Shown here piece by piece: positions 793 to 25,258 of a stretch of 64,000 nucleotides of DNA. The stretch is taken from NCBI RefSeq assembly GCF_000327285.1, contig NZ_HE998567.1, positions 337,588 to 401,587 on the forward strand. The letters are read 5' to 3'. The notes beneath the pieces were generated by a model, which saw only the letters and a list, made by a program, of their open reading frames with translations, did not search any database and was not told where the DNA came from. The first letter of the stretch is position 1; the number at the start of each line of letters is the position of its first letter. The position numbers were made by a program, and so were the translations under genes. Source of the DNA: Holdemania massiliensis AP2 (GTDB taxonomy: Bacteria > Bacillota_I > Bacilli_A > Erysipelotrichales > Erysipelotrichaceae).

Positions 793-1536
793 ATGGCTGA
801 AGCAAAAGAATTTTTCTCAGCTGCCAAACACGCTCTGGAAGAGGTTAAAAACACTCAGAGAGAGCCGATTTACCAGGCTGCCAAAATGATGGGCGACTGC
901 ATGCTGGAAAACGGTCTTGTTCAGTTGTTCGGGTTAGGACATGGACTGGCGTTTTCCATGGAACTGGGGTATCGTGCCGGCGGGTTGATGCCGTTCCACC
1001 AGATCAAAATGGAGGATTTATTGCTGCGCGGCATCGTTTCTCCGGAAGAAGCGAACCAGCCTGATTTTAACGACCGCACTGATTTGGCGGACAAACTGTG
1101 GGATATGTACAATATCGATGATCACGATATGTTCATTCTGATTTCCAATCCGGCCAACAACGGTGTTATCGTTGAATTTGCAAAGAAAGTCAAAGAAATG
1201 GGCCGCAAGCTGATCGTGGTGACGTCAAAGGCGGAAGCGGAGGCTTCGGTTTCCCGTCATCCATCCGGGAAGAAACTGACGGATTATGCAGATCTGATTT
1301 TGGATAACTGCGCGCCAAGTCCGGATATGGTAGTTTCTCTGGAAAATGGTCAGAAGATCAATCAGGTTTCCACAGTGACCGGCAACGTTATTGCACAGAT
1401 GCTGTGTGCTGAAACTTATCACTATCTGACCGGATTAGGCCATGACTGTCCGGTATTGCTGAGCGCCAATGTGAAGGGTGCCGATGTCCATAACCGCGAA
1501 ATCTCAGATGTCTATCTGGGACGCTGGAATTCCTAG
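793..1536 (+). CDS. SIS-domain sugar isomerase-like protein, paralogue 1 (altered phosphosugar motifs)
   Basis: Member of the UPF0309-like sugar isomerase (SIS) proteins, about 247 residues, predicted cytosolic phosphosugar binder. The fold is recognisable and HPSGKKL at about residues 154-160 is shared with the two next genes. The positions that carry serines in the paralogues are changed: FGLGHG (46-51) replaces FGSGHS/FGTGHS, and SNPANN (118-123) replaces SNSGxN. It may therefore bind a different ligand or act as a non-catalytic partner. First gene of a three-gene operon with tight spacing (11 and 23 bases). It has a good GGGAGG ribosome site. Confidence 0.82.
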   Translation: MAEAKEFFSAAKHALEEVKNTQREPIYQAAKMMGDCMLENGLVQLFGLGHGLAFSMELGYRAGGLMPFHQIKMEDLLLRGIVSPEEANQPDFNDRTDLADKLWDMYNIDDHDMFILISNPANNGVIVEFAKKVKEMGRKLIVVTSKAEAEASVSRHPSGKKLTDYADLILDNCAPSPDMVVSLENGQKINQVSTVTGNVIAQMLCAETYHYLTGLGHDCPVLLSANVKGADVHNREISDVYLGRWNS

Positions 1537-1547
1537 GAGGTGCGCTC

Positions 1548-2297
1548 ATGAAAGAAATTACAATGGATTTGTTCTATGAGGAAATGCTGAAAGTTGTCGA
1601 TGTACTGGAAGGCAAAGAAATGGACAATATCCGCAAGGCTTCAGAGGTCTGCGCGGAAACGATTGCTCAGGGCGGCGTTGTGCATGTCTTTGGTTCCGGG
1701 CATTCTGTTGGATTTGGCATGGAACTGGCAGGCCGTCCGGGCTCTTTAGTTCCATTCCATACGATCGTCACCAGTGATTTCGTGCTGCATGGCAAGGTTA
1801 CGCTGGCGGAGTTTAAAGATCCGGACAATATTTTTGAACGCCGTGCGGATATTGCCGATCGACTGTACGACCTGTATGACATCCGTCCGCAGGACAGCTT
1901 CATTATCATCTCGAATTCCGGAATCAACGGCGTCGTCATTGACTTTGCGATCAAAGCGAAGGCAGAAGGCCACAAGGTCATCGTTGTGACCAGCTGGCAG
2001 CATACCAGTGCAGAAGCCAGCCGTCATCCAAGCGGCAAGAAGCTGTATGAGATGGGCGATGTGGTCATTGATAACTGCGGTCCGCAGGGCGATGCGCTGA
2101 TTGAAACTGGCAAGATTGAAAAGATCTGCTCGATTTCTTCGATTACTGGTGCCTTTATCGCTCAGTCGATCACGACAGAAACCTGCCGGCTGTTAAGTGA
2201 GAAGGGCGTGGAACTGCCGCTGTTGCTGAGTGAAGAAACCGAAGAAAACCGCAGACACAATGCAGAATTAAGACAGAAATACGCAGGCCGTATTTAA
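1548..2297 (+). CDS. SIS-domain sugar isomerase-like protein, paralogue 2
   Basis: 249 residues, same family as its neighbours. It keeps the usual SIS phosphosugar-binding signatures: FGSGHS near residue 50, SNSGIN near 123-128, and SRHPSGKKL near 160. It probably binds or isomerises an aldose/ketose phosphate, but no transporter or kinase is linked, so the substrate cannot be told. The ATG has an AGGAGG ribosome site 11 bases after the previous stop. Translational coupling is likely. Confidence 0.85.
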   Translation: MKEITMDLFYEEMLKVVDVLEGKEMDNIRKASEVCAETIAQGGVVHVFGSGHSVGFGMELAGRPGSLVPFHTIVTSDFVLHGKVTLAEFKDPDNIFERRADIADRLYDLYDIRPQDSFIIISNSGINGVVIDFAIKAKAEGHKVIVVTSWQHTSAEASRHPSGKKLYEMGDVVIDNCGPQGDALIETGKIEKICSISSITGAFIAQSITTETCRLLSEKGVELPLLLSEETEENRRHNAELRQKYAGRI

Positions 2298-2320
2298 TTA
2301 AGGAAAAGGGAGGTACTAAA

Positions 2321-3043
2321 ATGTACAATTTTGAATACATGAACAAGGTTGATGAGCTGCTGCACACGGTGGATGATGCTAACAAGGAAAAAATCCAGGA
2401 ATTGGCAGTCAAGTTTGCCGACAACATCAAGAATAACCACATCATCCATGTCTTTGGCACAGGTCATTCCCACATGATCGGCATTGAACTGTTCTGCCGT
2501 GCCGGCGGACTGGGCAATGTCAATGCGATTCTGGATCCGGATGCGCTGACTAACTTCGGCGCTCGCCGCAGCGGTGCCATGGAAAAGGTTTCCGGTTTGG
2601 CGGATGTCATCTTTGATCAGTATAAAATTGACAAAGACGATATCATGATCATTATCTCCAACTCCGGCCGTAACGCTGTTCCAGTAGAAATGGCGATGCG
2701 CTGCCAGAAAGAGGGCGTTTATTCTATCGCTTTAACCAATCTGCATCAGTCGCAGAACACAACCAGCCGTCATCCTAGCGGCAAGCGTCTGTTTGAGTGC
2801 GTTGACTGCATTCTGGACAACTGTGTTCCAGATGGCGATGCTTTGATGAATGTCGGCGGCGTTGCAACCGGCCCAGGCAGCACAATCTCCAGCATCTTTG
2901 TTCTGGATACGATCGTCAATGAAGCACTGAAGATCCTGGCGGCTGAAGGCTGTGAACTGCCGGTATTCCAGAGTCAGAACGTCGATGGCTTCAACAATGA
3001 TGCGATCTACGCGAAGTATGAAGACCGCGTAAAACATTTCTAA
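2321..3043 (+). CDS. SIS-domain sugar isomerase-like protein, paralogue 3
   Basis: 240 residues, last gene of the SIS operon. It keeps FGTGHS near residues 46-51, SNSGRN near 113-118 and SRHPSGKRL. The family is annotated in Firmicutes as UPF0309 or sugar isomerase domain proteins. The three products could form a hetero-oligomer, as SIS domains work as dimers with sites at interfaces; this is inference. A strong terminator follows. Confidence 0.85.
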   Translation: MYNFEYMNKVDELLHTVDDANKEKIQELAVKFADNIKNNHIIHVFGTGHSHMIGIELFCRAGGLGNVNAILDPDALTNFGARRSGAMEKVSGLADVIFDQYKIDKDDIMIIISNSGRNAVPVEMAMRCQKEGVYSIALTNLHQSQNTTSRHPSGKRLFECVDCILDNCVPDGDALMNVGGVATGPGSTISSIFVLDTIVNEALKILAAEGCELPVFQSQNVDGFNNDAIYAKYEDRVKHF

Positions 3044-4557: not shown

Positions 4558-4837
4558 TTTTTTAAGTTATTCACAGAAATAAAGACTAATCATTCATGAC
4601 ATTAATTTTGTCGTTGATGACATTTTTTCTTCTAATTGTGTAAAAAAAATTAGACTTTTTTTGACTGATAAACTAGAGCTGGAAATTACTGTAAATAACA
4701 TGTTTATTCAGCCTTTATTCATTATAAATGGCTCACTTTTTAATGTCAATAAAAGTCTACTTTAAATTACAGGCTTGTTGACGACTTCGCAGGTGGCGAG
4801 AGAAGCGGTCATTTTTTTATTAAAAGGGGGTGAAGGG
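4558..4837 (+). other. AT-rich gap before the capsule locus
   Basis: About 280 bases without a credible gene. It should hold the promoter of the capsule operon. TTGACT at about 4657 is a possible -35, but I find no convincing -10 at the right distance. The composition drops sharply from here, marking the left edge of the locus. Confidence 0.4.
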
Positions 4838-5353
4838 TTGAACTGGTATTTTATTGAAACTGAACGATTTGAAGAAGAGAAAGTAAAACAGATCCTGATT
4901 AATTCAGGCTTTGACGCCTTTATCCCAAAGAAAGAAATGTATTTTAAAAAAGGGGAATTCACAGAGATAACCCAACGACTGTTGTTTCCGGGGACGGTTA
5001 TGGTCTGCGATCCGGAATCACCACCGCAATTTACCCAGAAGTTGAATGACTGGCTTGCTTTAAAGAAATCGGGATCAGAACTCATTCGATTAGAATCGGA
5101 TACTTATTATTCCTTATCTAATAAGGAGAAAGCTTGTTTAAGTCAATTATTAGACAGTCAAAGGATTCTACGATTTTCAACAGGTGTAATTCGACAACGA
5201 GAACTCCACGTCCTAAAAGGTCCTTTACAAGGTCATGAAAAAGAAATTCAGAAGATTAAACGCCATCAACGCCTAGCGACATTGCCTGTCCAGCTATGTG
5301 GTCAAACGATAGCCTTAATCGTAGGCTTAGAAGTAATCGAAAAAATTGGATAG
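4838..5353 (+). CDS. loaP: LoaP-type NusG paralogue, transcription antiterminator of the capsule operon
   Basis: 171 residues with TTG start at 4838, chosen because AAGGGGG lies 7 bases upstream and because the protein then matches the length and N-terminus (NWYF) of the second paralogue at 24743. Longer in-frame starts exist from 4775 but lack a ribosome site. The N-terminal half is a NusG NGN domain (NWYFIETERFEEEKV, LLFPGTVMVCD). The C-terminal part has the KOW-like VLKGPLQGHEKEIQKIK segment. LoaP proteins bind RNA polymerase and a leader RNA hairpin to let it pass terminators in long operons. Position at the head of a capsule operon fits exactly. Confidence 0.88.
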   Translation: MNWYFIETERFEEEKVKQILINSGFDAFIPKKEMYFKKGEFTEITQRLLFPGTVMVCDPESPPQFTQKLNDWLALKKSGSELIRLESDTYYSLSNKEKACLSQLLDSQRILRFSTGVIRQRELHVLKGPLQGHEKEIQKIKRHQRLATLPVQLCGQTIALIVGLEVIEKIG

Positions 5354-8814: not shown

Positions 8815-10824
8815 ATGCAGGAAAGAAAACGAAAGATTGAACACTGGCATGTGATCTCTTTGTACCTGATCGTTTATGATGCTATCACTGTAAACTTAGC
8901 GTATCTGCTTGCCTTATGGTTTCGCTTTGATTGTCAGTTTACAAGGATTCCTTTAATTTATTTGAATGCATGGATGCAATTCGTGCCCATTTATACGGTG
9001 ATCTGTTTAATTATCTTTTTCAGTTTAAAGCTCTATCGCAGCTTATGGCGTTTTGCGGGATACAGTGAACTGTTAAGAGTCACAGCTGCGACGATAGTGA
9101 CGGGAATTCTTCATGCTTTAGGAATTATGACGTTTTTTCAGCCGATGCCAACGTCTTACTACTTATTTGGGATGATTATCCAATTCTGTTTAACCATTGG
9201 AATTCGTTTCTCTTATCGGTTTGTTTTATTAGAAAGAAGCCGAAGAGAGAAAATGGCTAAAAAGAAACAGGAAAAGAACATCATGTTAATTGGAGCGGGG
9301 GATGCGGGTCGACTGATCTTACGAGATGTTCAGAGGACGGAGTTTGACGTAGGCAAGGTTCAATGCATCATTGATGATAATCCAAATAAATGGGGACGCT
9401 TCATTGATGGGATTCCGATTGTCGGAGGCCGGGATGATATCTTAGCTAACGTTGAGAAGTATCAAATCCAACAGATTCTAGTGGCAATTCCGAGTGCCAA
9501 AGCAAAAGCAAAACGCGATATTCTAAATATCTGTAAAGAAACCGGCTGTGAGCTGAAGATGCTTCCGGGAATCTATCAGATGGTCAATGGCGATGTCGCT
9601 TTTTCTAAGATGAAAGAAGTAGCCGTGGAAGATCTCTTGGGAAGAGAACCCATTCAAGTTAATATGGATGAAATCTTTGAACACTTGAAAGGGAAAGTTA
9701 TTTTAGTTACAGGTGGAGGCGGATCAATCGGCAGTGAATTATGCCGTCAGATCGCAGGCCATCATCCTAAACAACTCATTCTCTTTGAAATCTATGAAAA
9801 TAATGCTTATGACATTGAACAGGTATTGAAACGGAAATATCCAGAGTTAAACTTGGTTGTTTTAATTGGCTCTGTTCGGGACAGCCGAAGAATTGATAGT
9901 GTCTTTGAAACATATAAACCGGATATCGTCTATCATGCGGCAGCGCATAAACATGTCCCATTGATGGAAGGAAGCCCCAATGAAGCCATAAAAAACAATG
10001 TCATCGGTACGTATAAAACAGCGTATGCCGCATTAAAGAATGGCTGTCAACGATTTGTCCTTATCAGTACCGACAAAGCAGTGAATCCTACGAATATCAT
10101 GGGAGCGAGTAAGCGGCTGTGTGAGATGGTGATTCAGAGTATGAATCAAATCAGTCAGACCGGAAGCTATCAGCTTCTTCCTCAGCTTTGGTCGCATACG
10201 TGGAATCCAATCCAAGAGATCTGTCAAAACCAAGTCAAAACGGAATTTGTGGCAGTGCGCTTTGGGAATGTATTAGGAAGCAACGGATCAGTAATTCCTT
10301 TGTTTAAGAAACAAATCGCAGAAGGCGGACCGGTGACGGTAACACATCCAGATATCATTCGATACTTCATGACGATTCCGGAAGCTGTGAGCTTGGTCTT
10401 GCAAGCCGGAACCTATGCCAAGGGAGGAGAAATCTTCGTCTTAGATATGGGAGATCCGGTGAAGATTGATACATTGGCAAGAAATCTGATTAAGCTGTCG
10501 GGTTATAAGCCGAATGTGGATATCCAGATTGAGTATACGGGCTTAAGACCCGGTGAGAAATTATACGAAGAGAAACTAATGGCAGAAGAAGGGTTACAAA
10601 CAACCCCGAATCAATTGATTCATATCGCAAAGCCCATTGCTTTTGATGTGAAACAGTTTATGGATCAAATCGAGATCTTATCAGAAGCCAGTTACACAAA
10701 CAGTGCAACAATTAAACAGCTAGTTTCTGAGATTATCCCAACCTATCATCCTGAAAAGAAACAGGATGAGATTGAAGAAAGAAAAATTCAGAGACTTAGT
10801 GAGTGTAAACAAGTGAAAGCTTAA
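8815..10824 (+). CDS. CapD/FlaA1-type UDP-N-acetylhexosamine 4,6-dehydratase (membrane)
   Basis: 669 residues. Four N-terminal membrane segments (about 15-135) are followed by a CoA-binding-like Rossmann region (NIMLIGAGDAGR, about 159-170) and the catalytic SDR domain (VTGGGGSIGSE, about 299-309; STDKAVNPTNIMGASKR, about 420-436). The family makes 4-keto-6-deoxy sugars from UDP-GlcNAc for capsule units. It is longer than usual because of an insertion of roughly 25 residues after MVIQSMNQ (about 448-475) and before the conserved AVRFGNVLGSNGS. It follows CpsB in the conserved half of the locus. Confidence 0.9.
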   Translation: MQERKRKIEHWHVISLYLIVYDAITVNLAYLLALWFRFDCQFTRIPLIYLNAWMQFVPIYTVICLIIFFSLKLYRSLWRFAGYSELLRVTAATIVTGILHALGIMTFFQPMPTSYYLFGMIIQFCLTIGIRFSYRFVLLERSRREKMAKKKQEKNIMLIGAGDAGRLILRDVQRTEFDVGKVQCIIDDNPNKWGRFIDGIPIVGGRDDILANVEKYQIQQILVAIPSAKAKAKRDILNICKETGCELKMLPGIYQMVNGDVAFSKMKEVAVEDLLGREPIQVNMDEIFEHLKGKVILVTGGGGSIGSELCRQIAGHHPKQLILFEIYENNAYDIEQVLKRKYPELNLVVLIGSVRDSRRIDSVFETYKPDIVYHAAAHKHVPLMEGSPNEAIKNNVIGTYKTAYAALKNGCQRFVLISTDKAVNPTNIMGASKRLCEMVIQSMNQISQTGSYQLLPQLWSHTWNPIQEICQNQVKTEFVAVRFGNVLGSNGSVIPLFKKQIAEGGPVTVTHPDIIRYFMTIPEAVSLVLQAGTYAKGGEIFVLDMGDPVKIDTLARNLIKLSGYKPNVDIQIEYTGLRPGEKLYEEKLMAEEGLQTTPNQLIHIAKPIAFDVKQFMDQIEILSEASYTNSATIKQLVSEIIPTYHPEKKQDEIEERKIQRLSECKQVKA

Positions 10825-10875: not shown

Positions 10876-11547
10876 ATGAATTATTTATTTGTTGTTGCGC
10901 ATCCGGATGATGAATCTGATGCAGCTGGAGGTACAATTCATAAATTAATTAAGGAAGGAAACAATGTTGCGATAGCTATCATGTCTAGTCAAGTTAAAGC
11001 AAGGTCTAATTTATCTGAGACTTTACTAGAAGATGAAAAGGAAGCGATGAATATTCTTGGAGTGAAAACGGTTTATCATGCCAATTTCCCTAATATAAAA
11101 ATGAATACCGTTCCTCATCTTGATTTAGTTCAATTCATAGAATCTTGCATAAATGATTTTAGTGCAGAAGCAATTATAACGCATCATCCTGCTGATACTA
11201 ATAATGATCATGTAATTACTAGCTATGCAGTGCAAGCCGCGTGTAGATATTTTCAAAGAAAGAAAGTTGCTTATCGTTTAAAACTTTTTATGTATATGGA
11301 GACACCTTCAGCAACAGAATGGTCGTTAGATTCTTCATCACATAGATTTATTCCTAATCGATTTGTTGAAATTGGTGACGAAGGATTAAATGTTAAAATA
11401 AAAGCATTACAAGCTTATAAAGGGGTTATGCGTCCATTTCCACATCCAAGATCTATTAAAGCGTATGAAGGACTTGCGGCTTATCGTGGTTGTCAATCTG
11501 GACTAAACTATGCAGAAGCATTTGAAATTGTATTTGAAGCAAATTGA
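10876..11547 (+). CDS. PIG-L family N-acetyl-sugar deacetylase
   Basis: 223 residues with ATG at 10876, preceded by AAGGGGG. A TTG 15 bases earlier would lie inside the ribosome site. The zinc motif AHPDDES sits near residues 7-13 and the second motif HHPADTNNDH near 95-104. The LmbE/PIG-L family removes acetyl groups from GlcNAc-type sugars, exposing an amine. Composition changes abruptly here to very AT-rich. A free amine on the sugar would be the acceptor for the ATP-grasp ligase two genes later; that link is inference. Confidence 0.88.
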   Translation: MNYLFVVAHPDDESDAAGGTIHKLIKEGNNVAIAIMSSQVKARSNLSETLLEDEKEAMNILGVKTVYHANFPNIKMNTVPHLDLVQFIESCINDFSAEAIITHHPADTNNDHVITSYAVQAACRYFQRKKVAYRLKLFMYMETPSATEWSLDSSSHRFIPNRFVEIGDEGLNVKIKALQAYKGVMRPFPHPRSIKAYEGLAAYRGCQSGLNYAEAFEIVFEAN

Positions 11548-11561
11548 AAAGAGTGATTTTA

Positions 11562-12149
11562 ATGTATAAACATTATATTAAGTATACAATCGATTTCGTT
11601 ATTGCTTTAATTGCTTTAATAGTTCTCTTCATACCGATAATTGTCATTTCTATTGCAATAAAACTAGATAGTGAAGGCCCAATTGTTTTTAAGCAAATAA
11701 GATTAGGGAAAGACAGAAAAGAATTTACTATTTATAAGTTTAGAACAATGACCAAGGATATGTCTGAAAAAGACGGAATCGTTACACTTTCTACAGATAG
11801 TAGAATTACTAAGATAGGCGCTTTTTTAAGAAAGACGAGTTTAGATGAAATTTTACAGTTTGTAAACATCCTAAAAGGACAAATGTCAATAATTGGACCG
11901 CGACCAATATTACCGATACAATTTGAACCTTATATAGATAATTCTCATTTTTGTAAACGTTATGAGGTAAGGCCTGGATTAAGCTGTACGATAGATATTA
12001 ATAACAGAGCTTCTTTTGATAGAGAACTTCAATTCAATATGGATGCAGATTATGTAGATAATATTTCATTTTTACAAGATATACGAATCTGTTTCTTATT
12101 AGCCAAAACGGTTTTATTTGATAAAAAAATCTATGAAGATGAGACTTAA
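11562..12149 (+). CDS. Undecaprenyl-phosphate sugar-1-phosphate transferase (initiating transferase)
   Basis: About 195 residues from ATG 11562; a TTG at 11544 overlaps the previous stop and is an alternative. One N-terminal membrane segment (about 6-32) precedes the cytosolic bacterial sugar transferase domain. This shows GPIVFKQIRLGKDRKEF, YKFRTM, LRKTSLDEILQFVNILKGQM and IIGPRP, all signature segments of the family. The enzyme places the first sugar-1-phosphate on undecaprenyl phosphate and so starts the repeat unit. This is a short form lacking the extra N-terminal membrane domain of WbaP-like enzymes. Confidence 0.9.
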   Translation: MYKHYIKYTIDFVIALIALIVLFIPIIVISIAIKLDSEGPIVFKQIRLGKDRKEFTIYKFRTMTKDMSEKDGIVTLSTDSRITKIGAFLRKTSLDEILQFVNILKGQMSIIGPRPILPIQFEPYIDNSHFCKRYEVRPGLSCTIDINNRASFDRELQFNMDADYVDNISFLQDIRICFLLAKTVLFDKKIYEDET

Positions 12150-12165
12150 AGGAGGGGCATAAATT

Positions 12166-13302
12166 ATGGAAAATGGGATTAAAGATCATGTGTTTATTGT
12201 ATTCGCTTTAGATCATTATAATCCACTGGGGGTAGTTAGATCTTTAGGAGAGGCAGGTATCAATCCTGTTTTGATAGCAGTTAAACATAAAGTTGACCTT
12301 ACCGTGAAGAGTAAATATGTAAAAGAATGTTATAAAGTTAAAAATGTAGAAGAAGGATTTAATATCTTAGTTAAAAACTTTAGTTCAAAATATAAATATA
12401 AACCTTTTGTTATTACTTGTGATGATAAAACAGAGGGATATTTGGATGAACATTATGATGAACTAAAAGATAATTTCTATTTCTTTAATGCAGGCGATAA
12501 GGGACAGATTGCAAAGTATATGGATAAAAAGAATATACTTGAATTAGCTAAGAAACATGGATTAAAAATATTGAATTCAATTGTTGTGTCAAGAGGAGAA
12601 ATTCCTGACAGTATTGGATATCCAATTATAACAAAGTCCATTTCACCTAACAGTGGAAAATGGAAATCTGATGTCCATATATGCTTTTCTGAAGCAGAGT
12701 TAATAAAGGCATATAATGGAATATCATCATCCATAGTTTTACTTCAAGAGTATATTGAAAAAAAGAACGAATTATGTTTAGATGGTTATTCAATTAATGC
12801 TGGAGAAGATATGTTTATTTCCATAGCTTCGAAATATAATTATCAAATTCCAGGTTATTATAGCCCATATATGACAGTCAGTAATTTTGATAATCCTGAG
12901 ATGGAAATTGCATTAAAAGCAATGTTAAAAGAAATAGGTTTTGAAGGTATTTTTTCTATTGAATTTTTAATTGATAATAATGACAATTATTATTTTAGTG
13001 AAATCAATTTTAGAAATTCAACATGGAGTTATGCCTCGACTTATGCTGGCATGTCACTTCCAGTTTTGTGGGCTGAATCCACAATTAATAAAAAAATTCC
13101 TGAAGATGTTTATAAACCAATTCCTAATAATTTCATGGCAATGGTTGAGCCTGTTGATTATATGAAAAGAGTGAATTCGAAGAAAATTGATCTCTCACAG
13201 TGGATATCAGATTTTAAAAAGACAGAGTGTTGTTTCTACTATAATGAAAATGATTTGGATCCTTTTCGCGAGATGTTAGGAAATTTTGAAAAATTGGGCT
13301 AA
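12166..13302 (+). CDS. ATP-grasp ligase of the capsule core
   Basis: 378 residues. An N-terminal pre-ATP-grasp Rossmann-like domain (about 1-105) leads into the ATP-grasp fold: YPIITKSISPNSGKW with the conserved lysine (about 148-162), LLQEYIEKKNELCLDGYSI (about 188-206), and the metal-binding FSEINFRNST (about 282-291). ATP-grasp ligases join a carboxylate, through an acyl-phosphate, to an amine or similar nucleophile. In this neighbourhood the likely product is an amide on an amino sugar. The real substrates cannot be read from sequence. It lies between the initiating transferase and the BCCT transporter with a good GGAGGGG ribosome site. Confidence 0.82.
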   Translation: MENGIKDHVFIVFALDHYNPLGVVRSLGEAGINPVLIAVKHKVDLTVKSKYVKECYKVKNVEEGFNILVKNFSSKYKYKPFVITCDDKTEGYLDEHYDELKDNFYFFNAGDKGQIAKYMDKKNILELAKKHGLKILNSIVVSRGEIPDSIGYPIITKSISPNSGKWKSDVHICFSEAELIKAYNGISSSIVLLQEYIEKKNELCLDGYSINAGEDMFISIASKYNYQIPGYYSPYMTVSNFDNPEMEIALKAMLKEIGFEGIFSIEFLIDNNDNYYFSEINFRNSTWSYASTYAGMSLPVLWAESTINKKIPEDVYKPIPNNFMAMVEPVDYMKRVNSKKIDLSQWISDFKKTECCFYYNENDLDPFREMLGNFEKLG

Positions 13303-13332
13303 TGGAATTAGAAAAAAGGGAGATATAGGGGA

Positions 13333-14834
13333 ATGATTAGATTTATAAAGAGAAATATTGTTTTTTTATATCGATTATTATAGCTGTTATTTTAATTGCA
13401 TATGGCAGTTTGTTCAATGATAGTTTAAATGCTGTTTCAAGTGTTGTTATGACTTTTGTTAGTGACAAATTCGGTTGGTTATATCTTCTTTTTATTTTCT
13501 TTTTGTGTGTATTTATAACGTGGTTGGCTTTTTCAAAATATGGAAATATAAAACTAGGGGCTGATGATAGTAAGCCTGAATATAGTAATTTTAGTTGGTA
13601 TGCAATGCTTTTCTGTGGTGGAACAGGGATAGGGTTAGTGTTTTGGAGTATAGCTGAACCGTTGTCACATTATATTGCACCTCCTAATCCTATAGAACCT
13701 GGGACAATTGAGGCAGCAAACTTTTCAATTAGAACCTGTTTTTTACATTGGGGTATTACTCAATGGGTATGTTTTGCAATTGTAGGCTTAGGACTAGCGT
13801 ATTTTCAATTTAGAAAGAATAAAAGAGGACAAATAAGTGATCTATTAACTCCGCTTGTAGGTGAAAAAGCAACAAAAGGAATTTTTGGTAAGGTAATTGA
13901 TGTTTTTTCTGTTGTTGTCTCATTTGCTGGGGTTGCAACTTCATTGGGCTTAGGTGTTTCACAAATTTCTGGAGGATTAAATTTTCTTTGGAATGTCCCA
14001 AATCAAAAAGAAACTTGGTTTGTTATTATTTTTGTTATAACTTGTATTTTTTTAGCAAGCGCGGTCTCTGGTGTAAATAAAGGAATTAAATTTCTTTCAA
14101 GAATAAACACGTATTTAGCTTTCATTTTATTATTCCTTGGTTTTATGATTGGTCCAACAACAATGATTTTCGATACATTTGTTAACGGAGTTGGTCAGCA
14201 TATACAAAACTTCATAGGAGATGTCTTAATGATAAATCCTTATGGAGATAATACTTGGATAATGAATTGGCGAGTTTTTTATTTCGCGTGGTTCATAGCT
14301 TGGACACCATTTGTCGGAATGTTTATTGCAAGGATTTCTAAGGGGAGAACAATAAGAGAATTTATAATTGGAGTTGTTATCGTTCCAACGATTTTTACAA
14401 TTATATGGTTATCTGTGTTTGGGACTATTGCTTTAAACGCTTCTGCAAATTGGAATCTAATGGAGTTAAAAGATATAATTGCTTTACCTGAAACGGCTGT
14501 ATTTATTATTTTTTCACAGTATCCTTTGGTAAAAGTAATGTCTGTTCTTGTTATAGTGTTGTTAGCAATATTTTTTATTACTTCAGCAGATTCAGCTACT
14601 TATTCACTTAGCTTAATGACTTCAGAAGGAAATCCTAATCCTCCAATTTTTAAAAAGATAATTTGGGCAATAATTGAGGCACTATTGGCATTTGTACTAT
14701 TATCTGTAGGGAGCATAAAACCATTGCAAACAATTTCGATTGCTGCATCATTACCTTTTTTATTTATCATGATTGCTATGTGTCCTGCACTTTTGATAGA
14801 GCTTAAAAAAGAAAGTATAAATAAGAAGAACTAA
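13333..14834 (+). CDS. BCCT (betaine/carnitine/choline) transporter with a frameshift in its 5' end
   Basis: Reading starts at ATG 13333 after AGGGG and gives MIRFIKRNIVF, then meets a stop after 16 codons. One extra base in the T7 run at 13361-13367 would join it to the long downstream frame (13410-14834), restoring a first membrane helix FFISIIIAVILIAYGSLFN. The rest is a clear BCCT protein: FCGGTGIGLVFWSIAEPLSHY-type motif near the second third of helix 2, and YFAWFIAWTPFVGMF with ARISKGRTIRE, the family signature. Without correction only a TTG-started protein lacking helix 1 could be made. A compatible-solute carrier inside a capsule core is unusual. Frameshift, slippage and sequencing error are all possible. 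Confidence 0.85.
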
Positions 14835-14882: not shown

Positions 14883-15974
14883 ATGGAAAAAATATTGTTA
14901 ATATCACCAAAAGATAATAATTTTTTCAATTTCAGAAGTGAATTGATAATGAAATTAGTTAAAGATAAATTTGAAGTTATTTTAGTTTGTCCTTATGGAT
15001 GTAAGATGGATTATTTTATTAATCAAGGTTGTCGCTTTATAGATATACAAGTAGATCGTAGAGGGACCAATCCAATAAATGATATGAAACTGATTTATAA
15101 TTATTTTAAAGTGATTAAAATGGAGCAACCTAAAATTGTATTAACGTATACAGCAAAATCATCTATATATGGTGGTTTTGTATGTAGACTATTAAATATA
15201 CCGTATATAACAAATAATGCAGGGATAATGAATAACGAAGGTTGGCTGGGAAAGTTAATGCCAATTCTTTATAAAATAGGATTTCAAAAGGCATCATGTA
15301 TTATGTATCAGAATAATGAAGAAAGAGAATATTTTAATAGACTTTTTGATTACAAACTTTATTACAGAAGTATACCGGGCTCAGGTGTGAATTTAGATGT
15401 TTTTAAACTTAAACCCTATCCAAATGATGATGTAATAATATTTAACTTTGTAGCGCGTATTGTTTCTATAAAAGGTATCAATGAGTTTTTAGAATGTGCT
15501 ACCAGAATAAAGAATAAATATCCTAATACACGGTTTATTATTTATGGTGAATATGATGATAAAAGGTACGAAAAAAAAATTAATGACCTTGCAGGAAAAG
15601 GAATAGTTGAATATGGTGGGATTAAAATTGATATGAAACCATATATTGAATTAGCGCACGCAGTTATTCACCCTAGCTATTATGAAGGAATGACCAATGT
15701 TGTATTAGAACATAGTGCTATGGGGCGAGTTTGCTTAGGGGCAGATATAGCTGGGGTTCGAGAGGGAATTGAAGATGGTTTAACAGGATATTTGTTTGAA
15801 CAAAAAAATGTAGATTCAATGATAAAAGCTGTGGAAAAATTTATTAATCTACCATATGAAAGTAAGAGAGAAATGGGACTTAAAGCTAGAAAAAAAATGG
15901 AAACTGAGTTCAACAGAGAGCTAGTTGTAAATACTTATATAGAAGAAATAAAGCGAATTGTAGGAAGCGTTTAA
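14883..15974 (+). CDS. Glycosyltransferase family 4 (capsule repeat-unit assembly)
   Basis: 363 residues. The N-terminal half resembles the GT4 donor-independent Rossmann domain (LLISPKDNNFFNFRSELI; TYTAKSSIYGGFVCRLLNI). The C-terminal half contains PGSGVNLDVF, FVARIVSIKGINEF and HPSYYEGMTNVVLEHSAM with the two glutamates of the E-x7-E motif. It transfers a sugar from a nucleotide donor to the lipid-linked repeat unit; the specific sugar cannot be told. The ribosome site is weak (GAAAGTG). Confidence 0.87.
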   Translation: MEKILLISPKDNNFFNFRSELIMKLVKDKFEVILVCPYGCKMDYFINQGCRFIDIQVDRRGTNPINDMKLIYNYFKVIKMEQPKIVLTYTAKSSIYGGFVCRLLNIPYITNNAGIMNNEGWLGKLMPILYKIGFQKASCIMYQNNEEREYFNRLFDYKLYYRSIPGSGVNLDVFKLKPYPNDDVIIFNFVARIVSIKGINEFLECATRIKNKYPNTRFIIYGEYDDKRYEKKINDLAGKGIVEYGGIKIDMKPYIELAHAVIHPSYYEGMTNVVLEHSAMGRVCLGADIAGVREGIEDGLTGYLFEQKNVDSMIKAVEKFINLPYESKREMGLKARKKMETEFNRELVVNTYIEEIKRIVGSV

Positions 15975-16343
15975 ATGATTTTAAGAAGTAAATATATAAC
16001 TTCAATATAAATATAATTTACTTTTATATATGAATGAATGCATAGTAATAAGAGAGTTCTTTGTTTTTTTTAGTTTAGGAAAATAGAATTAAACTTAAAT
16101 AGTGAATAGTTGTCACATGTACTATAAGAATTAGTGCAGATTAGGATCATAATATTAGATTTGTTTTGGTTATATTAAATATAACTGATAATATAATTAC
16201 TTTTGCACAGCTGAGATGTTAAAAATACTATTAAAGTGATAGATTTTTATTGGAACATAAGTAACAGTAAGAATTCATCTGTTTCTAATTTCAAAAGAAA
16301 ATATGAATAAGGTTATCTAATTAATAAAAAAATGGAGAATGAA
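15975..16343 (+). other. AT-rich gene-free gap inside the capsule core
   Basis: About 370 bases with stops in all frames and no recognisable hairpin terminator. It may be a fully decayed gene or a recombination junction between capsule modules. I see no coding remnant that I can name. Confidence 0.4.
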
Positions 16344-16928
16344 ATGAGAGTGTTTATTGCGTCTGAGTTTAGATGTCATATTTGTAATGGAGAGTATTAT
16401 CTCACGTCGAAAGCATATTCTATTTATAAGCATTATTCGGATGCTTTCGGAGAAGTAGTTCTTTGCTCAAGATTTATTGAAATTACTAATTTGGAATCGA
16501 GTATGGTAAAGGTTAATTTTATTAGGGATATAATTCAAATCAAGAGCCTTAATAGTGCATTAATAGGACTATATGATAAAGATATTGAGAATAAAATTAG
16601 AAATTGTGATTTAGTAATAGGTCGTTTACCTTCTATAATTGCAATTCGTTCGTGTAAAATTGCAGAAAAAGTTAATAAATCTTACTTAGTAGAATTAATG
16701 TGTGACAGTTGGGCATCTTATTGGAATCATGGTGTTTCAGGTAAGGTCATTGCACCATATATGTATTTAAGTACTAAAAGCATTACATATAATGCTAACT
16801 ATGCTATATATGTAACAGAAAAATACTTACAGAAGCATTATCCATGTAAAAATCAAAGTATTAATGCTTCAAATGTTACAATAAATGAAATTTCTAATGA
16901 TATTTTGATTAACAGATTAAAAAAATAA
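16344..16928 (+). CDS. Glycosyltransferase, N-terminal half (frameshifted gene)
   Basis: ATG 16344 is chosen because GGAG lies 6 bases upstream; the ATG at 16332 overlaps that site. The 194 residues (MRVFIASEF start) look like the N-terminal acceptor domain of a GT-B glycosyltransferase, with VIGRLPSIIAIRSCKIAEK and a SWASYWNHG segment. The frame stops at TAA directly after a run of seven A (16919-16925). One more A would continue smoothly into the second half (16951-17523), giving one protein of about 390 residues. Alone, this half lacks the nucleotide-sugar-binding domain. Confidence 0.75.
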   Translation: MRVFIASEFRCHICNGEYYLTSKAYSIYKHYSDAFGEVVLCSRFIEITNLESSMVKVNFIRDIIQIKSLNSALIGLYDKDIENKIRNCDLVIGRLPSIIAIRSCKIAEKVNKSYLVELMCDSWASYWNHGVSGKVIAPYMYLSTKSITYNANYAIYVTEKYLQKHYPCKNQSINASNVTINEISNDILINRLKK

Positions 16929-16950
16929 AAATAAAGATAATTGTAAGGAA

Positions 16951-17523
16951 TTGGCTATAATGACTAGCGCAGATATCGACTTATCATCTAAAGGTCAAAG
17001 GTTTGTAGTAAGGTCAATGGGAAAATTAAAAGCAATAGGAATTACAGTTACTTATTATCTTGCTGGGAATGGCAATCAACAACATTTATTACATGAGGCT
17101 GTAAAAGCAAAAGTTGAAAATCAAATTGTGTTTTTAGGATGGTTAACACAAGAGGAAATATTTAGCCAAATAGATAAAGTTGATATATATATTCAACCGA
17201 GTTTACAAGAAGGATTGCCAAGAGCAGTAATAGAAGCAATGAGTAGAGGGTGTCCTTGCATAGGGACGAATATTGCTGGAACTCCAGAATTATTAGATAA
17301 AGACTGTATTGTTAAAACTGCTTCTAGTAATGATATTGTAAGAGTGATTGTTAATATGCTTTCCAAGGGTTTAGAAAAATATGCGATACATAATTTTGAA
17401 CGCAGTAAGGATTATTTAGAATCAACATTGAATGGAAGGAGAAATCAATATTTTAAAATAATTATTGATGAATTGAAGGAAATAAAATATGGAACAAACG
17501 ATGATTCGTCGATTCACAATTGA
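16951..17523 (+). CDS. Glycosyltransferase family 4, C-terminal half (frameshifted gene)
   Basis: About 190 residues forming the donor-binding half of a GT4 enzyme: TYYLAGNGNQQHLL, FLGWLTQEEIFSQI, QPSLQEGLPRAVIEAMSRG with E-x7-E, and GTNIAGTPELL. The frame is open upstream through KDNCKELAIM to just after the A7 run, so it belongs with the preceding half. A TTG at 16951 or ATG at 16960 could start it separately, with AAGGA upstream. Whether the cell makes a joined protein by slippage is unknown. Confidence 0.8.
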   Translation: MAIMTSADIDLSSKGQRFVVRSMGKLKAIGITVTYYLAGNGNQQHLLHEAVKAKVENQIVFLGWLTQEEIFSQIDKVDIYIQPSLQEGLPRAVIEAMSRGCPCIGTNIAGTPELLDKDCIVKTASSNDIVRVIVNMLSKGLEKYAIHNFERSKDYLESTLNGRRNQYFKIIIDELKEIKYGTNDDSSIHN

Positions 17524-20651: not shown

Positions 20652-20701
20652 GGAATACACAAACTTAATTAGATATTAAATAAAAAAGGAGTATGATAAA
20701 T

Positions 20702-21769
20702 ATGGAAACATTTATAATAACAGGAGCTACAGGTTTTATAGGCTCAAATCTAGTTCTTAAGTTACTGCGAATGCATTCACTTGTTGACATTATTGGTATA
20801 GATAATATGAATGACTATTATGATGTATCATTAAAAGAATATCGTTTAAAACGAATTGAAGCTTGTGCTGCTGAATATCCAGATAGTCGTTGGACTTTCA
20901 TAAAGGGGTCAATTGCGGATAAGAACTTAGTTAATAAAGTCTTTCAAGAGTTTAAGCCTTCAATTGTAATTAACCTGGCTGCCCAAGCTGGGGTGCGGTA
21001 TTCGATCACTAATCCAGATGCCTACATAGAATCCAATCTCATTGGTTTCTACAATATTTTAGAGGCCTGTCGTCACAGCTACGATAATGGAGAATCTGGT
21101 GTGCAACATCTCGTTTATGCATCTTCATCCTCGGTATATGGTTCTAATAAAAATGTACCTTATTCTACCGAAGATCAAGTTGATAATCCAGTTTCATTGT
21201 ACGCAGCTACCAAGAAATCGAATGAATTGATGGCTCATGCTTATAGTAAGCTTTATAACATTCCATCCACCGGGCTGCGTTTCTTTACTGTTTATGGGCC
21301 TGCAGGAAGACCGGATATGGCTTATTTTGGATTTACCAATAAACTGATCAAAGGGGAAACCATTGAGATCTTCAATTATGGAAACTGTAAACGGGATTTT
21401 ACTTATATTGATGATATTGTGGAAGGAATCATTAAGGTGATGCAAAAACCACCTAAGAAACAGATGGGAGAAGATGGGTTACCTTTACCTCCTTATGCAA
21501 TTTATAACATAGGAAACAATCATCCAGAAAATCTGCTTGATTTTGTAACCATACTTCAGGAAGAATTGATACGAGCAGGAGTATTGCCGAAAGACTATGA
21601 TTTTGAAGCACATAAGAAATTAGTGCCGATGCAGCCTGGGGATGTCCCAATCACTTATGCTGATACAACGGCATTAGAACGCGATTTTGGATTTAAGCCG
21701 AGCACAAGTTTAAGAGAAGGACTAAGAAAATTTGCACAGTGGTATAAAGAGTATTATTTAGGGAAGTAG
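20702..21769 (+). CDS. UDP-glucuronate 4-epimerase-like NAD-dependent SDR
   Basis: 355 residues from ATG 20702. The ATG at 20693 directly abuts the AAGGAG site and is too close. GATGFIGSNL near residues 8-17 binds NAD. The catalytic SSSSVYG serine region is near 140 and YAATK near 167. PGDVPITYADT at the C-terminal end is characteristic of UDP-GlcA 4-epimerases and CapI-type enzymes. It would make UDP-GalA from the UDP-GlcA produced by the next gene, suggesting an acidic capsule with uronic acids. GC returns toward normal within the gene. Confidence 0.88.
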   Translation: METFIITGATGFIGSNLVLKLLRMHSLVDIIGIDNMNDYYDVSLKEYRLKRIEACAAEYPDSRWTFIKGSIADKNLVNKVFQEFKPSIVINLAAQAGVRYSITNPDAYIESNLIGFYNILEACRHSYDNGESGVQHLVYASSSSVYGSNKNVPYSTEDQVDNPVSLYAATKKSNELMAHAYSKLYNIPSTGLRFFTVYGPAGRPDMAYFGFTNKLIKGETIEIFNYGNCKRDFTYIDDIVEGIIKVMQKPPKKQMGEDGLPLPPYAIYNIGNNHPENLLDFVTILQEELIRAGVLPKDYDFEAHKKLVPMQPGDVPITYADTTALERDFGFKPSTSLREGLRKFAQWYKEYYLGK

Positions 21770-21783
21770 GAACTTCTTTTTTT
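21763..21783 (+). terminator. Internal intrinsic terminator overlapping the epimerase stop
   Basis: GAAGT (21763-21767), loop AGGA, ACTTC (21772-21776), then seven T. It sits between two genes of the same operon, with the ugd ribosome site directly after. Confidence 0.65.
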
Positions 21784-21796
21784 ATTGGAGGAACAT

Positions 21797-23029
21797 ATGA
21801 AAATAGCGGTAGCTGGAACTGGATATGTGGGGTTATCCATCGCCACATTATTAGCACAACATCATGAAGTATGGGCAGTAGATATTATTCCTGAAAAAGT
21901 AGAGTTAATCAATCAGAGAAAGTCGCCAATTCAAGATGTATACATTGAGAAGTATCTGAAAGAAAAAGAATTGAACTTGACCGCAACGTTGGATGCTCAA
22001 AAAGCTTATAAAGAAGCAGAGTATGTTGTCGTTGCAGCACCGACGAATTATGACAGTCAGAGGAATTTCTTTGATACTTCGGCAGTGGAAGCGGTTATTC
22101 ATCAAGTCATGGAAATTAATCCGGATGCGTTTATCATTATTAAATCTACGGTGCCTGTAGGTTATACTAAGCAATTAAGGGAAAGCTTAAGAAACAAGAA
22201 GATCTTGTTCAGTCCTGAATTCTTAAGGGAATCTAAGGCATTATATGATAATCTGTACCCATCCCGAATTATTGTGGGGACAGATTTGGAAGATGAAAGT
22301 TTGACGGAAGCTGCGCATACCTTTGCGAAGTTATTACAGGAAGGCGCACTGAAGGAGAAGATTGAAACGTTATTCATGGGCTTTACCGAAGCGGAAGCTG
22401 TGAAACTGTTTGCGAATACTTATTTGGCACTGCGGGTGTCTTTTTTTAATGAACTGGATACGTATGCAGAAGTAAAGGGATTAGATACGAAACAGATCAT
22501 TGATGGAGTGTGTATGGATCCAAGAATCGGAAGTCATTACAATAATCCATCCTTTGGTTATGGAGGGTATTGTCTGCCGAAAGATACCAAACAGCTGTTG
22601 GCTAATTATGCTAATGTGCCAGAGAATCTGATTGAAGCTATCGTTGAAAGCAATCGCACCCGAAAAGATTTCATCGCAGACCAAGTGCTGAAGATGGCAG
22701 GGTATTATGATGAGAACAGCAGTTGGGATGAAAGCAAAGAAAAGCAAGTGACAATTGGAATTTATCGCTTAACGATGAAATCGAATAGTGATAACTTCCG
22801 ACAGAGTTCAATCCAGGGAGTCATGAAGCGGATCAAAGCCAAAGGGGCGAAGGTGATCGTATATGAGCCGACATTGGAAGCGGGAAGTACGTTCTTTGGC
22901 AGTGAGATCGTAAATGATTTCGAAGCGTTCAAGCAGAGGAGTCAGGCTATCATTGCCAATCGAGTGGATGATGTACTTCAGACGGTTATGGAGAAAGTGT
23001 ATACACGAGATCTATTTCAACGTGATTAA
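21797..23029 (+). CDS. ugd: UDP-glucose 6-dehydrogenase
   Basis: 410 residues from ATG 21797, with TGGAGGAAC upstream; a TTG 12 bases earlier lies inside that site. [10 protein letters not shown] at about 7-16 is the NAD motif. SPEFLRES lies near residue 140. [14 protein letters not shown] near 250-263 carries the catalytic cysteine. It oxidises UDP-glucose to UDP-glucuronate in two NAD-dependent steps. It is the last capsule gene and is followed by a terminator. It supplies the epimerase just upstream and possibly direct GlcA transfer. Confidence 0.93.
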
Positions 23030-24742: not shown

Positions 24743-25258
24743 ATGAACTGGTATGTACTGTTTATCCGCAGCGGAATGGAAGAGAAAATCCGAGATTTTT
24801 TTCTCAGTCAGGGTCTTCAGGCTTTTATTCCTAAGATGAAAGTCGTGTTCAGAAAACAGGGAATCTCCGAACTCGTAGAGAAAACGATGTTTCCAGGCTA
24901 TTTGTTTATCGAAAGCGAGCTGGGACAAGTCGCGATGGATGAGCGGATTAAAGAACTGCGGCAGCAGAAAACCGGAATTGTCAAGCTACTTAAATTTGAT
25001 AAAGAAGGGACCCCAGCGCTGCGCAGCGAGGAAAAAGAATATCTTGAACGTCTGCTGGGCAAAAATAAAGTATTGGAGCATTCCACCGGTCTGATTCAGG
25101 GCAATCAGGTCATCATTACCGAGGGTCCGCTGCAAGGCTTCGAATCGCAGATCGTTAAGATTGATCGGCATAAGCGTCGGGCGGTGTTGGAACTGGAATT
25201 GTGTGGTCAGCCGACACGCGTCAGCGTTTCCTTGGAAATTGTTCAGAAGATTGATTAA
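24743..25258 (+). CDS. loaP: Second LoaP-type NusG paralogue
   Basis: 171 residues, exactly the length of the capsule Loa[15 protein letters not shown] at the N-terminus and [11 protein letters not shown] (about 51-61) form the NGN domain. [19 protein letters not shown] near 128-146 is the KOW-like part. It has GC near the chromosomal average, unlike the capsule copy. It has its own promoter and a terminator, and the next genes (asnA, then purine genes) are not polysaccharide genes. It may act on an operon elsewhere or also on the capsule locus. AAAGGGGAGAG ribosome site. Confidence 0.87.

Follow-up and report, generated by a model that had tools for sequence, protein, structure and literature searches.

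The window analysed here is a stretch of 64,000 nucleotides (C1 337588-401587) from a 3.8 Mb Holdemania-like genome, and our subject is a run of four consecutive genes within it (10876-14834), encoding a PIG-L deacetylase, a bacterial sugar transferase, an ATP-grasp ligase and a BCCT carrier. The open reading frames (ORFs), the Pfam and NCBIfam matches and the composition bear out the initial annotation, which had placed these families side by side in an AT-rich capsule core: guanine-cytosine (GC) content goes from ~0.48-0.53 in the flanks to 0.27-0.31 across the four genes. We consider that PIG-L, ATP-grasp and BCCT very probably make up a real functional module. For the fuller reading of these sequences, a capsule-decoration module in which an imported betaine-type acid would be amide-linked to a sugar amine freed by PIG-L, the chances appear evenly balanced.

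Judging from their sequences, the surrounding genes form a complete Gram-positive Wzx/Wzy capsule locus. We found LCP, Wzz, a Wze-like kinase, CpsB, CapD, two glycosyltransferases of family GT4, DUF1919, Wzy and Wzx, so that Wzx, Wzy, the initiating transferase and Wzz/kinase/CpsB are all present, the Wzx match being slightly below the Pfam cut-off (27.2 vs 28.2). The locus also holds a UDP-glucuronate-epimerase-like short-chain dehydrogenase/reductase (SDR) and a UDP-glucose dehydrogenase, which suggest that the capsule contains a uronate as acidic residue, and the CapD-like dehydratase is a possible source of amino sugar.

The PIG-L protein scores 78 bits with PF02585 (cut-off 28.2) and has the HPDDE metal motif, with the downstream H/D residues also conserved. 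The BCCT protein matches PF02028 with 569 bits over profile positions 19-485 and reaches 582 bits with the NCBIfam model betaine_BCCT, under its cut-off of 650.

Table 1. Positions of the four genes and of related features in the window.
Feature	Position	Strand	Evidence and remarks
CapD-like nucleotide-sugar 4,6-dehydratase	8815..10824	+	PF02719 4.6e-118; context
PIG-L family de-N-acetylase, 223 aa	10876..11547	+	PF02585 1.1e-21
Small initiating phosphoglycosyltransferase, ~195 aa	11562..12149	+	PF02397 3.6e-55; probable ATG start within ORF 11544-12149
ATP-grasp ligase, 378 aa	12166..13302	+	ATP-grasp fold in model; EINFRN motif
BCCT transporter	13333..14834	+	PF02028 7.6e-171; open from TTG 13410
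Seven-T run at the BCCT frame break	13361..13367	+	
GT4 glycosyltransferase	14883..15974	+	Context, outside core module
UDP-glucuronate-epimerase-like SDR and UDP-glucose dehydrogenase	20693..23029	+	Context

Recurrence of the three-gene module

Scanning the ATP-grasp alignment against 84,980 species genomes returned five loci, in Holdemania filiformis, a Eubacterium metagenome-assembled genome (MAG), a Roseburia MAG and two Erysipelotrichaceae MAGs. Four more (G837, G920, G667 and G590) came from 397 sampled genomes of the family of the Roseburia MAG (Lachnospiraceae). No further member of the ATP-grasp clade was found in a 392-genome sample of the phylum, and the clade is therefore rare. It is carried by ten loci, nine of them evaluable and one (G590) cut by a contig end. 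PIG-L is present in eight of the nine, in three lineages only ~27-37% alike, and BCCT in six (the two Holdemania species, the Eubacterium MAG, the Roseburia MAG, G837 and G920), directly beside ATP-grasp in four of those six. Recurrent co-occurrence, the absence of which had been named beforehand as refuting the initial hypothesis, is thus observed for PIG-L, ATP-grasp and BCCT in six loci of different genera.

H. filiformis DSM 12042 (G079) has the same gene order as the window, with 66% identity for ATP-grasp and 84% for BCCT, and as a named strain with the module it makes the idea directly testable. Between these two genomes, all cassette genes have proportions of nonsynonymous differences (pN) of 0.10-0.22 vs 0.67-0.75 for synonymous ones (pS), the synonymous sites being near saturation; the sequences indicate strong purifying selection on the cassette. 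PIG-L, the transferase and ATP-grasp also form one cluster in the Eubacterium MAG and G837, where BCCT follows ~8 and ~17 kb downstream, respectively, apparently within a single run of polysaccharide genes. The downstream GT4 gene (Table 1) shares 60-64% identity with its counterparts in H. filiformis, the Eubacterium MAG and G837. ATP-grasp adjoins BCCT in the Roseburia MAG and G920, with PIG-L one or two genes further, and the remainder is a different, nonulosonate (pseudaminate/legionaminate-type) locus, which has in common with the window essentially only the three-gene module. The initiating transferase stands beside the module in the window, H. filiformis, the Eubacterium MAG and G837 and is absent from the Roseburia and G920 loci; it is no constant part of the module, although the initial annotation had included it.

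Chance co-location was rejected on this recurrence and on an estimate of ~2e-9 for a BCCT within 20 kb at four of five Lachnospiraceae loci, a figure that assumes random placement, comes from loci that are not fully independent and serves as a guide only. Within the 397 Lachnospiraceae genomes, the three BCCTs above 900 bits are all in genomes of the ATP-grasp clade, the next BCCT scoring 679. Spread by mobile elements or plasmids was also discarded, with no BCCT relative in viral contigs and all matches in the plasmid collection below 60% identity; the lone ATP-grasp match in that collection is 25% identical.

In the BCCT tree, five of the cassette carriers form one clade (100/100), and that of G920 is nested among carriers linked to betaine reductase (mostly 60-66% identity). 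Because the carriers lie on two branches and the near ATP-grasps form a single clade, the ligase must have acquired BCCT partners at least twice. Two such recruitments, together with the three PIG-L lineages, make passive hitch-hiking unlikely, and the functional linkage of the three families first proposed from the window is well supported by them and by the six loci.

As a control, 21 stretches containing the closest BCCTs from outside the cassettes were inspected. Genes reading as components of glycine/betaine/sarcosine reductase lie beside the carrier in 13 of them (one of these reductases was scanned, with its best score to betaine GrdH, the betaine reductase selenoprotein B), and genes reading as MttB-family methyltransferases occur in five (two scanned). 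MttB-family genes also adjoin the sister BCCTs of the cassette carriers. These neighbours suggest that the parent carriers serve methylated-ammonium acids. No PIG-L, clade ATP-grasp or capsule glycosyltransferase was found within three genes in the 21 control stretches. Catabolic betaine uptake through Grd or MttB was rejected as the role of the cassette carriers: searches of four cassette genomes for MttB and of seven for GrdE/I homologues found none, the positive control of the latter search being detected. Four cassette genomes, that of the window included, have the cassette carrier as their sole BCCT; G920 has a second, distant one.

Immediately upstream of the cassette BCCT, two loci (L067:18644-19288 and L139:2235-2903) encode a PglD-like acetyltransferase whose N-terminal extension resembles an integrase arm-binding domain. 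In the Roseburia locus, the gene just upstream of ATP-grasp encodes a MaoC-like hydratase (L069:9574-9981).

A possible route to a decorated capsule

The Pfam score of the ligase is weak (5e-4), and its AF2 model, built from six sequences (pLDDT 77, pTM 0.82), has a full ATP-grasp fold. It matches PylC with Z 23.4 and a root-mean-square deviation of 3.2 over 301 residues, the EINFRN motif is conserved, and along its length the model resembles PylC, PurK, biotin carboxylase and L-amino-acid ligases, which are tied. An aromatic cluster (YxYxxxGYYSPY and NFRNSxWxY) is specific to the clade, being absent from relatives of 22-28% identity and partly altered in G667 and G590. Our guess, from the sequences, is that it cages an ammonium group.

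In the following scheme we infer the identity of the substrate, the direction of the amide bond and the order of the steps. PIG-L would remove the N-acetyl group from a nucleotide- or lipid-linked amino sugar and so free its amine. BCCT would import, probably by Na+ symport, a zwitterion of the betaine type (a carboxylate with a methylated ammonium, for example glycine betaine). ATP-grasp would activate the imported carboxylate as an acyl phosphate and couple it to the freed amine, giving an amide. The positively charged sugar would then enter the repeat unit, to be flipped by Wzx and polymerised by Wzy, and with the uronate genes of the locus the result in Holdemania would be a zwitterionic capsule. 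That the imported compound is the substrate of the ligase seems probable to us. We propose more tentatively, at somewhat less than an even chance, a new class of surface-glycan decoration, in which a scavenged betaine (glycine betaine or a related compound, probably from the diet or the host) is amide-linked to capsule amino sugars, so that the zwitterionic capsule bears permanent positive charges, by means of a small mobile PIG-L/ATP-grasp/zwitterion-importer module that enters unrelated capsule loci.

Several observations weigh against this scheme. The modelled fold points to activation of a carboxylate, and which acid this would be is not readable from a fold. Both Erysipelotrichaceae MAGs (L070 and L071) have PIG-L with ATP-grasp and no BCCT in the genome, and at G667 no PIG-L was found within ~10-30 kb on either side of ATP-grasp. 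In the window itself, the listed BCCT start (TTG 13410) lies within the gene; homology with H. filiformis extends upstream to ATG 13333, and a break near the seven-T run puts the ~26 initial codons out of frame. The aromatic box of the carrier is also altered. Site I of TmaT comprises Trp146, Trp151, Tyr154 and Trp326, plus Met105 (PMC11708041), and for a canonical glycine-betaine BCCT we took W, W and Y in transmembrane helix 4 (TM4), W in TM8 and GMGxG. The window BCCT instead has W, W, F and F with GTGIG. Aligned with site I of TmaT/BetP, the residues of the five-member clade are Trp; Trp or Phe; Phe; Phe; and Thr (Met->Thr, Tyr->Phe, Trp->Phe), the second Trp being Phe in two members, and with such a pocket the cargo of these carriers may differ from glycine betaine.

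As for the frame break, it is not the only one in the window, as the second GT4 (window 16332-17523), for which relatives have one ORF, is broken into two near a seven-A run (16919-16925). The position of both breaks at homopolymers suggests sequencing or assembly error; they could be phase variation or decay.

The altered pocket, found in five of the six cassette BCCTs, bears on an alternative that we regard as unlikely but the strongest of those considered: the same module would attach an acid that is no quaternary betaine, for example sarcosine, dimethylglycine, proline or an ectoine-like amino acid. The known cargo of the BCCT family also includes dimethylglycine, ectoine and proline, and in a Vibrio BCCT the residue requirements are strict for dimethylglycine and ectoine and looser for glycine betaine (PMC7876524). 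Some betaine-reductase-linked BCCTs likewise have Trp->Phe in TM8, which can be counted for this alternative. However, the G920 cassette BCCT keeps the full canonical box, an ammonium group can be bound even by a box with Phe, and sister carriers sit beside MttB-family genes. The sodium-site motif TSADS is retained. The initial claim of a betaine- or carnitine-type cargo fits the context of the relatives (betaine reductase and MttB) but is weakened by the altered box, and we place a betaine-type quaternary acid at about even.

Many BCCTs are osmoporters. The cassette carrier could accordingly be an osmolyte porter that merely lies in the locus, with PIG-L and ATP-grasp making their amide from an ordinary cellular amino or organic acid, as the two Erysipelotrichaceae MAGs without any BCCT would allow. 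We consider the osmoporter alternative improbable, since co-localisation is far above chance, BCCTs were recruited twice and G667 has another membrane carrier in their place, directly after ATP-grasp (L084:10716-11825). The latter has no Pfam or NCBIfam family match and is 38% identical to a carrier of G740 (L133:9883-11046) that adjoins betaine-reductase-type genes; this family may be another betaine-type importer.

Comparison with known systems

Lic-1 (LicABCD) represents one of the two closest known logics: a quaternary amine is taken up and attached to a glycan of the cell surface, which thereby becomes zwitterionic (PMC10434233). There the compound is choline and the route goes through a kinase, CDP-choline and a phosphodiester, whereas here we propose a carboxylate, an ATP-grasp and an amide. 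Import of choline by BCCT for phosphocholine decoration of this type would follow that precedent, and LicD genes do occur in or near the loci of G667 and of two g3 MAGs (Erysipelotrichaceae). However, no LicD was found among the window proteins scanned (30 to 31623), nor in the cassette genomes G547 and G548, searched whole, and Lic-1 has no role for ATP-grasp and PIG-L. We rejected this possibility on the lack of LicD and give it the lowest probability of all, close to nil. G000 has two LicD genes, both far from the locus. Both G667 and G920 have, after a LicC-like nucleotidyltransferase, a separate and distant BCCT (29% identical; L141:2739-6818 and L142:2191-6338) that may feed a phosphocholine-type pathway.

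The other is that of Campylobacter jejuni, in which an ATP-grasp forms a capsule amide and whose capsule amidoligase is the TupA-like C-terminal part of Cj1438 (PMC11800379). That enzyme joins a glucuronate carboxylate to serinol or ethanolamine phosphate, unlike the sugar amine and imported carboxylate proposed here, and the window ATP-grasp has no TupA match in Pfam. By analogy, the ligase could join the imported compound to the carboxylate of a uronic acid, as amide or ester, and the uronate genes of the Holdemania loci would suit this. The recurrent partner is nevertheless PIG-L and not the uronate genes, no uronate dehydrogenase was seen in the Eubacterium or G920 stretches examined, and quaternary amines have no free amine to offer, so we hold a uronate linkage to be very improbable.

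The L-amino-acid ligases (BL00235-type and RizA) and PylC share with the window ligase the ATP-grasp fold and acyl-phosphate amide chemistry, PylC being top by Z and tied with the others; they are only 10-17% identical, use other substrates and lie outside capsule loci. BetP, TmaT and the betaine-reductase-linked BCCTs share with the cassette carriers the family, a GXGXG-type TM3 and the TSADS motif, but the five-member clade has the altered box and sits in capsule rather than catabolic or osmotic loci. Searches for BCCT with capsule and ATP-grasp, for PIG-L with ATP-grasp and for betaine-bearing polysaccharides returned no precedent in the open-access literature, subscription papers being outside their scope.

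A betaine-type capsule decoration would be new. Zwitterionic capsules affect immune recognition, phage adsorption and resistance to cationic peptides. If the proposal is right, dietary betaine would enter the capsules of gut commensals and make their surface charge diet-dependent, and the BCCT family would gain a third role beyond osmoprotection and catabolism. An ATP-grasp of this clade beside a zwitterion importer would then serve as a genomic marker for such capsules.

Upstream of the capsule locus, three tandem SIS-domain genes (window 793-3043) lie between a guanylate kinase gene and an AlbA/Schlafen-type gene. NusG-like genes flank the capsule locus on both sides (window 4775-5353 and 24743-25258) and are possibly specialised antiterminators.

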